Positions 36,914 through 38,182 of a stretch of 64,000 nt of DNA are shown here, piece after piece (within the stretch, counting starts at the first letter, position 1; the number at the start of each line of letters is the position of its first letter). The notes beneath the pieces were generated by a model. That model did not search any database. It was given only the letters and a program-made list of their open reading frames with translations, and was not told the origin of the DNA. Origin of the DNA: Bradyrhizobium quebecense (GTDB lineage: Bacteria > Pseudomonadota > Alphaproteobacteria > Rhizobiales > Xanthobacteraceae); contig NZ_CP088022.1 of NCBI RefSeq assembly GCF_013373795.3, forward strand, positions 4,216,001-4,280,000, in the 5' to 3' direction. Both the position numbers and the translations under genes were made by a program.

Positions 36914-36935
36914 GGGCCCCTCTCTCAAACGTTTC

Positions 36936-36960
36936 TGCCTGCTTCAGGCAAGCTACCGCA
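36936..36960 (-). promoter_or_regulatory. ops-like element with adjoining hairpin
   Basis: Read leftward, the gap between the NusG-paralogue gene and wlbA contains T-GCGGTAGCTTGC (36960-36948). In E. coli the ops pause element that recruits the NusG paralogue RfaH has the core GGCGGTAGC followed by a variable base and T. The match here covers GCGGTAGC, then TTGC. It runs directly into a perfect hairpin, TGCCTG-AAG-CAGGCA (36950-36936), 23 bp before the wlbA start. I infer a pause and loading site for the NusG-like protein encoded just upstream. Confidence 0.5.
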
Positions 36961-37028
36961 CTCGGGGTGAATCGAACATCACACCCAAGCCAAACATGTC
37001 CGTTACGCCTGCCCGGAGGCAGACGCAG

Positions 37029-37544
37029 TTACGCCGCAGCGATCAGGTCCGTCCCGACAAGAACACGGACCTTGCGGCCCAACAGGTTCAAGAGAACCGC
37101 AACGCGATGCTGATCGCTGGCGTCTTCAACGAGCGCAAGACTGTCGACGAACGCACCTTCGACAATTCGCACTTTATCCCCGGGCGAGAACGCCGGCCTG
37201 CGCGCAAGCGTGATGAAGCCGGCGTCGTCCTCGCGCCCCTTCAAGGCATCGATGACGCGGTCTTCCACCACCGCCGGTCGATCTCCCACACACACGAGAT
37301 GCGACACGCCGAGCGTCGATTGAATGGCACGCCACCGCTGCGACGCGAGGTCGATCCCGACAAAGAGATAGCGCGGAAACAACGGACGCGGCACAGTCTC
37401 CACCTTCCTGGCATGGCTGCGGCGCTTCAGGTAACGGGGGAAATAGATCGAAAATCCCTGCCGCTCGAGGTTGGCGGCCGCCTTTGCTTCGGCATTGACC
37501 TGCGTCTGAACGACGTACCAACGTGAACTGAGCTCCATGGCCAT
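37029..37544 (-). CDS. NusG-family specialised elongation factor (RfaH/LoaP-like)
   Basis: 171 residues from the ATG at 37544. The upstream open part is shadow sequence of the regulator gene. The NGN domain is clear: SRWYVVQTQVNAEAKAAANL, RQGFSIYFPRYLKRR, PRPLFPRYLFVGID, GVSHLVCVGDRPAVVED. A KOW-like C-terminus follows, FSPGDKVRIVEGAFVDSLA with VLLNLLGRKVRVLVG. NusG paralogues in polysaccharide loci bind RNA polymerase and suppress termination in long operons. It is the second gene of the long leftward run, coupled to the regulator (TGATG), and the ops-like element lies just downstream. It is almost certainly not housekeeping NusG, which is normally encoded beside secE and ribosomal-protein genes. 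Confidence 0.85.
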   Translation of the reverse strand: MAMELSSRWYVVQTQVNAEAKAAANLERQGFSIYFPRYLKRRSHARKVETVPRPLFPRYLFVGIDLASQRWRAIQSTLGVSHLVCVGDRPAVVEDRVIDALKGREDDAGFITLARRPAFSPGDKVRIVEGAFVDSLALVEDASDQHRVAVLLNLLGRKVRVLVGTDLIAAA

Positions 37545-38182
37545 CACGCCCCCAACGATTGCTTTGGACGCAGGCCCAGCAGATCCGGCGCAAGGACCTT
37601 CTCCGCCCCGAAATTGCTGACCGCCTGCTCGAATACACTGCGCGCGGCCGTCAGATGCGTCACGACGACCGCATCGAACGGCTCGTCCACCAGCGCATAG
37701 GAGGAAACGACCTTGACACCGATGAACCGGGTCGCGGTTGCATCGGGATCGACGATCGCAAGGACAGAGATGGGCCCATCGACCGCGCACAGGATCGCGA
37801 TTTCGCAGAGGTCGGACTGTCCGGCGAGCACCACCCGCCTGAAGCCGAGCGCCTGAGCACGCTCAAACAGCCTGCCATACTCCTCCTTGGCCTTTCGGAA
37901 GAGCGAAAAGGAGTCCGACAGGAACTGGACGGTCAGTCGCGATTTCTCGGAGAAGCCTTGCGGCGTGAGGTAGTAGGCGTATCGCCGCGCTGGCGCCTGC
38001 CCGACTTTGACGAAGCCCTTCTTGATCGCCCGCTTCAGATACGCGTTGACCAGGCCGAGCGCGACGCCCAGATCGGCCGCGATCCGCCGCTGCGACTGCG
38101 CACCATCGGCTTCAAGCGAGGTGAGCAGACCGAGCACCAGCCGGTCGCTGTCATTCTCATCTGTCGGTAGAATGCCCGCCAT
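37544..38182 (-). CDS. Winged-helix (MarR-like) regulator with Rossmann-like C-terminal domain
   Basis: 212 residues from the ATG at 38182, which has GGGGA at ideal spacing. A GTG at 38221 lies inside the predicted operator and promoter and is rejected. The N-terminal part has a winged helix: SQRRIAADLGVALGLVNAYL (recognition region), KRAIKKGFVKVG, ARRYAYYLTPQGFSEKS. The C-terminal part, FRRVVLAGQSDLCEIAILC, ISVLAIVDPDA and FDAVVVTHLTAAR, resembles a nucleotide- or CoA-binding fold, so it may sense a small molecule. It is the first gene of the long operon. Paired palindromes lie just upstream and suggest autoregulation. Confidence 0.75.
   Translation of the reverse strand: MAGILPTDENDSDRLVLGLLTSLEADGAQSQRRIAADLGVALGLVNAYLKRAIKKGFVKVGQAPARRYAYYLTPQGFSEKSRLTVQFLSDSFSLFRKAKEEYGRLFERAQALGFRRVVLAGQSDLCEIAILCAVDGPISVLAIVDPDATATRFIGVKVVSSYALVDEPFDAVVVTHLTAARSVFEQAVSNFGAEKVLAPDLLGLRPKQSLGA

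Follow-up and report, generated by a model that had tools for sequence, protein, structure and literature searches.

We analyzed a window of 64,000 nucleotides from the 9.17-Mb genome of Bradyrhizobium quebecense, in which a leftward run of 25 genes extends down to position 7007 (ORFs chosen by the authors). A gene for a winged-helix (wHTH) regulator comes first in this run and a gene for an RfaH-like NusG paralogue, here termed the factor, comes second, the wHTH stop codon and the factor ATG overlapping by one base. An initial annotation of the window had described an NGN/KOW gene, second in a leftward run of about 25 genes and distinct from housekeeping nusG, and had reported GCGGTAGCTTGC at 36959-36948 in the gap behind it. 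We found both as described: the likely housekeeping NusG is encoded elsewhere (G000, 3539281-3539775; E = 3.4e-7), the factor is the only clear paralogue, and the motif is present within the 115-bp gap. The features of the locus are listed below.

38244..38258, minus strand: operator-like inverted repeat GTTCATGGCGTGAAC, upstream copy
38216..38230, minus strand: operator-like inverted repeat GTTCATCCGGTGAAC, between TTGAC (38235-38231) and a -10-like CTATCA (38212-38207)
37544..38182, minus strand: wHTH regulator gene, 212 aa, MarR_EPS-like (HTH_24, 31.8 bits; TIGR04176, 61.8 bits)
37029..37544, minus strand: RfaH-like NusG paralogue (factor) gene, 171 aa (NusG PF02357, 80.2 bits)
37028-36914, minus strand: gap 3' of the factor gene, 115 bp
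36960..36990, minus strand: conserved hairpin, with a 3' arm, TTCACCCCGAG, that ends beside the ops core (from folding and arm complementarity across relatives)
36949..36960, minus strand: ops-like element TGCGGTAGCTTG, T1 to G12 by E. coli numbering, with the expected pause T11 at 36950
36936..36950, minus strand: TGCCTG-AAG-CAGGCA hairpin of the initial annotation, clade-specific and outside the conserved signal
7007..36913, minus strand: glycan operon beyond the ops-like site, 23 ORFs (from Pfam matches)

The 23 ORFs beyond the gap, which presumably form one transcription unit, encode Gfo/Idh, hexapeptide transferase, and two asparagine-synthase-like proteins, a Wzm/Wzt-type ABC exporter, glycosyltransferases, methyltransferases, a DegT aminotransferase, epimerases, and a UDP-sugar dehydrogenase; 3 of the 23 lacked a Pfam match. 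Within and beside the operon lie three asparagine-synthase-like genes (39616-41427, 32461-34329, and 11567-13426). The terminator scan listed no intrinsic terminator in the 115-bp gap, and no Rfam family was detected in the window at gathering thresholds.

Conservation of the ops-like element and its co-occurrence with the factor

In enterobacteria, ops pausing recruits RfaH to RNA polymerase. As a single-genome observation, the ops-like element has no statistical weight: GCGGTAGC occurred once in the window against 1.81 expected, GCGGTAGCNTGC gave 5 matches in the genome against 16 for its reversed control, and the 15-mer of the downstream hairpin, at up to 3 mismatches, gave 4 matches against 1.82 expected. 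The case for this putative element is one of conservation, not of counts within one genome.

The factor is carried by 45 of 265 genus genomes, in 46 gene copies (E of 1e-20 or better), and GCGGTAG lies 53-94 nt 3' of the factor stop codon in 44 of the 46, the misses being in G156 and G121. Among 26 genus factor genes thinned to <85% identity, we observed exact GCGGTAGC in 24 loci, with T11 and G12 each kept in 24, and the loci share a block of about 25 bp, TTCACCC-N4-T-GCGGTAGC-N-T-G. Because the conservation profile was anchored at the best match to GCGGTAGC, this core is favored in it; the anchoring did not draw on bases -12 to -4 or on T11/G12, and both were strongly conserved nonetheless. 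Around the block the information is low, rising weakly at about -23 to -19, where the 5' arm lies, at +15 to +20, and at +24. The conservation check that accompanied the initial annotation came out in favor of the ops-type motif, which stands far above background in orthologous gaps. As for the two genomes with misses, G156 (L064 and L098/L215) has a decayed-looking site behind the factor gene and an intact site with an operator-like repeat about 44 kb away, and in G121 (L072/L216) the site is upstream, not downstream, of the factor gene.

The site co-occurs with the factor. The strict form TCACCC-N4-TGCGGTAGC occurred once in the 9.17-Mb genome of the window (reversed control, 0); within the genus, it was present in 44 of the 45 factor-bearing genomes and in 0 of the 220 others; G138, the sole genus genome with the factor but without the strict form, has TCACCCGGATGGCGGTAGC instead, and the reversed control matched 5 of the 265 genomes by our own count. 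Across the family, CACC-N5-TGCGGTAGCNTG was found in 43 of 296 genomes and 15 of 47 genera (control, 1). Class-wide, CACCC-N4-TGCGGTAGC was found in 40 of 385 genomes (control, 6 by our own count), specifically in 38 of 87 genomes with a TIGR01955 (RfaH) match versus 2 of 298 without one, a comparison that, like our other Fisher tests of co-occurrence, ignores phylogeny and is descriptive only. The strict site was missing in 49 of these 87 factor genomes, 16 of which matched a looser pattern with 5 control matches. A spread beyond the class was rejected, with the strict pattern in 12 outside genomes and 12 reversed-control matches in 11 genomes (own count).

We then scored class loci using a matrix whose training set comprised 76 sites from the genus and the family. 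Of 89 factor loci, 86 had enough downstream sequence, and 30 of these had a site within 350 nt 3' of the factor gene, with scores of 11 to 42 against a maximum of 4.2 among 860 shuffles. These 30 matches comprised 26 GCGGTAGC, three GCGGCAGC, and one GCGTGAGC. Three loci below threshold (L286, L319, and L320) have TGCGGTAGC without the CACCC arm. No above-threshold site was found within 350 nt in 56 of the 86 loci, including most of a class subgroup whose factors have W at R16 and E at R23 (L272, L283, L285, L303, L304, L311, L315, L317, L325, and others); L310 is an exception in this subgroup.

The GCGGCAGC sites, at L109, L120, and L122, are natural ops variants behind RfaH-like factor genes and are changed at T6, the base flipped out by E. 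coli RfaH. In the corresponding factors, R23 is replaced by E, A, and D, respectively. We considered co-variation of T6 with residue 23 and do not claim it because L310 has E together with GCGGTAGC.

Hairpins on either side of the ops core

Immediately upstream of the ops core, the window folds into a hairpin of -15.7 kcal/mol (z = -3.56) that was equaled in 0 of 200 shuffles; for the L108 site, the fold had z = -1.72, with 9 of 200 shuffles as good. The stem forms between the 3' arm, CACCC-N4, and a second arm upstream of it. Across 118 non-redundant sites, the own upstream arm paired better than the mean of arms swapped between sites in 89 and failed to do so in 29, and own arms beat the mean of shuffled arms in 102; the observed mean was reached in 0 of 500 arm permutations. 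Pairing at 7 of 7 positions was seen with 23% of own versus 4% of swapped arms, and at 6 or more with 72% versus 42%. Most sites in these tests were chosen by pattern, and the protein-anchored view is the conservation profile of the thinned loci.

In only 53 of the 118 sites does the best fold pair the A-C-C of the CACCC arm. Within these 53, both bases change together at -4, -3, and -1; in 26 of them, pairing ends at the base directly before T1. Loop length was 3 to 13 nt in 94 of 99 sites having 5 or more of 6 pairs. In the window, the base of the hairpin lies about 11 nt before T11 (E. coli numbering), and about 11 nt is the hairpin-to-pause spacing of hairpin-stabilized pauses.

The initial annotation had instead pointed to a perfect hairpin fused to the motif on its other side. 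This TGCCTG-AAG-CAGGCA hairpin is present at 36950-36936, but it does not belong to the conserved signal. Of the 46 genus loci, 20 have a hairpin of at least 5 bp after the ops core; 17 of these loci are at 77% factor identity or more, and the other 3 have different hairpins. We rejected the reported hairpin as a signal component because it is mostly confined to close relatives. In the window and its close relatives, this clade-specific hairpin has two alternative pairings, TGCCTG/CAGGCA or GCTTGC/GCAAGC.

We also folded E. coli waaQ and rfbB up to and into ops (z = 0.27 and -0.85; 113 and 38 of 200 shuffles as good, respectively). Because neither site folded better than shuffles, we do not claim a matching hairpin before E. 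coli ops sites.

The factor, the wHTH regulator, and sites elsewhere in the genomes

RfaH is the best NCBIfam model for the factor (TIGR01955, 124.8 bits), which falls below the cut-off of 144.5, a value exceeded in none of the 385 class genomes. All 100 members of our alignment matched the RfaH model at 1e-10 or better, and all 100 also matched UpxY. At the ops-reading positions, the window factor has Q for K10, N for H20, and L for R73 and keeps R23; it also keeps Q24, T72, and G74, and E48 is replaced by R. Across 102 distinct loci that carry a site, Q replaces K10 in 73, and H20 is kept in 32, R23 in 83, and R73 in 11. The polymerase-binding F56 is invariant (102 of 102), and G74, T72, and Q24 are kept in 102, 101, and 98 loci, respectively. 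In a check of the Rho-binding loop, L145-I146-N147 aligned with L-L-G. The best of five AF2 models predicted a beta KOW domain (mean pLDDT, 86.5; pTM, 0.63), in a run that had no E. coli RfaH control.

The wHTH protein falls below the MarR_EPS TIGR04176 cut-off of 88 bits. Its gene directly precedes the factor gene at 43 of the 46 loci in the genus and at 67 of the 89 in the class, and GTTCAN5TGAAC occurs within 250 nt upstream of the wHTH gene in 43 of these 43 and 52 of these 67 loci, respectively, against shuffled expectations of 0 and 0.05. In the genome of the window, TTGACGTTCANNNNNTGAACG is unique and lies at the operator-like repeat of 38216..38230. TTGAC and CTATCA around GTTCATCCGGTGAAC may constitute a promoter; the consensus scan did not pick up this candidate.

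Sites also occurred away from the factor gene, as 34 of 132 distinct site windows were not within 400 nt behind one. GTTCAN5TGAAC lies 56-234 nt upstream of 14 of these 34 sites, and the other 20 have no operator-like repeat within 250 nt upstream. Some of the 34, such as L222 and L226, look like chance matches. Among 20 scanned first genes behind non-adjacent sites, 12 belong to sugar or glycan families (six DegT aminotransferases, three Polysacc_synt_2, and one each of cytidylyltransferase, nucleotidyl transferase, and UDP-sugar dehydrogenase), and the other eight comprise two ABC transporter genes, an asparagine-synthase-like gene, a methyltransferase gene, His_biosynth, Band_7, and two without a match. 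The factor was present in all three family genomes with non-adjacent sites that we checked. In G719 and G690, the factor gene is about 2.3 kb from the site on the other strand. The G235 site is about 18 kb from the factor gene, also on the other strand; it has an operator-like repeat and is followed by a DegT gene. The G525 site is about 650 kb from the factor gene, lacks the operator-like repeat, and precedes an ABC transporter gene. In relatives, sites of this kind are candidate points of action for the factor in trans.

A candidate recruitment signal and its relation to known systems

Our analyses show the conservation and position of the element, the complementarity of its hairpin arms, its co-occurrence with the factor, and glycan genes behind many of its other sites. 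We consider it likely that the gap contains a recruitment signal, hairpin plus ops, through which an operon-encoded RfaH-like protein acts as antiterminator of the 30-kb glycan operon. Such a composite elongation-control signal would have two parts: a nascent-RNA hairpin whose end lies about 11 nt ahead of a consensus pause and, directly after it, a non-template DNA motif of ops type (T-GCGGTAGC-N-T-G). After transcribing the wHTH and factor genes, RNA polymerase would pause at the signal, and the RfaH-like factor from the upstream gene would bind the exposed ops bases, remain on the polymerase, exclude NusG and Rho, and support antitermination through the glycan operon. Signal copies before other glycan genes in relatives are probably reached by this factor in trans, and the wHTH protein probably governs initiation via GTTCAN5TGAAC, its presumed target.

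The RfaH-like control proposed in the initial annotation is supported in part: comparison backs a conserved ops-type element that heads a glycan operon and has an RfaH-like factor gene as its neighbor, and the reported hairpin is abandoned. A reading of ops through the E. coli RfaH residues is not supported for the window factor either. In E. coli, ops reading is tied to K10, H20, R23, and R73 in the accessible part of PMC5995543 (see also the available portion of PMC2871177), and only R23 of these is kept.

These replacements, together with the predicted NusG-like beta KOW, would suit an alternative in which the gap provides only a strong pause and an RNA hairpin, serving perhaps to couple transcription to translation or to control the leader, with the paralogue acting in cis by proximity and without base reading. 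Cis recruitment without ops is also the explanation given for operon-adjacent homologues in the sections of PMC13015549 at hand, where it is invoked for a Cluster 1 not shown to include the group of the window factor. However, central ops bases 3-8 matter for E. coli RfaH recruitment and not for pausing, according to the same part of PMC5995543. The window-type site keeps these bases as well as the pause bases T11/G12, and GCGGTAGC is nearly invariant at the bases that pausing does not need. The complete lack of the strict site from the 220 genus genomes without the factor, and the sites about 18 kb (G235) and 650 kb (G525, with no operator-like repeat at the site) from the factor gene, likewise speak against recruitment by proximity, and we judge this alternative unlikely.

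The GGGTGA..TTCACCC inverted repeat and its flank could also be a double-stranded DNA operator for a regulator such as the wHTH protein, whose gene is nearby, and arm complementarity alone cannot separate an RNA hairpin from a DNA dyad. The variable loop length (94 of the 99 sites span 3 to 13 nt) is unlike a dimer site, however, a separate conserved repeat lies upstream of the wHTH gene, and the best-conserved part is the asymmetric ops core beside the 3' arm, so that an operator is very improbable. We give still less credence to a chance ops look-alike whose conservation is merely inherited from close relatives: GCGGTAGC is at chance level in the window alone, but the core stays while much of the gap around it is unconserved, and its class-wide recurrence with the factor contradicts this explanation.

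Within the hairpin-plus-ops reading, we raise a bolder possibility tentatively, leaning slightly against it: that this is an ancient dual-readout form of RfaH recruitment, in which a non-autoinhibited, operon-encoded factor with a beta KOW would read both a hairpin-stabilized pause and non-template ops bases, through contacts other than those of E. coli, and would also act in trans. If so, sequence-specific ops reading need not follow autoinhibition and R73, contrary to a stepwise model. A class-wide ops site beside factors mostly without K10 and R73 makes the residue-based picture of recruitment directly testable, and an ops-like signal paired with a factor having different DNA-reading residues may show how such regulators evolve. 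The site predicts the glycan operons under each factor, and the hairpin with ops, along with GTTCAN5TGAAC, offers a search handle for polysaccharide regulation in rhizobia and their relatives.

Among the papers listed for an open-access collection, represented mostly by titles and the starts of abstracts, we found no report of ops elements in Alphaproteobacteria, nor did we find one in the available parts of the papers cited here, PMC7819879, PMC11001881, and PMC3438125 included. The excerpted text of PMC7593976 (Wang et al. 2020) places 18% of RfaH-like genes in Alphaproteobacteria and names E. coli RfaH as the sole member whose mode of recruitment is known in detail. In the same excerpts, CL4 genes neighbor an HTH regulator and CL2-CL8 genes neighbor envelope genes, as at our locus, and no recruitment site is described for these clusters; the window factor may belong to CL4. 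UpxY of Bacteroides capsule operons is similarly encoded inside its own target glycan operon (PMC7593976, same excerpts), but the window factor scores 71.1 bits with the UpxY model NF033644, below the cut-off of 100. The LoaP system of Bacillus resembles ours in that its target signal includes a leader hairpin, whereas the dfn hairpin of LoaP is of UNCG type with no discernible pause (PMC12691694, in part), and the factor scores 45.4 bits with the LoaP model NF033641 against a cut-off of 125.

The closest features are those shared with RfaH and ops: the best-matching NCBIfam model, the GCGGTAGC-N-TG core, the glycan targets, and the retained F56, G74, T72, and Q24. Unlike RfaH, the window factor is below the RfaH cut-off, has K10, H20, R73, and E48 replaced, has a predicted beta KOW, and is encoded at the head of its own target, and a conserved hairpin with a CACCC 3' arm lies directly upstream of ops here, whereas E. 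coli waaQ and rfbB fold like shuffles. As judged from sequence, the proposed hairpin-plus-ops system fits neither E. coli RfaH fully nor the ops-free view of operon-adjacent homologues put forward in the accessible text of PMC13015549.
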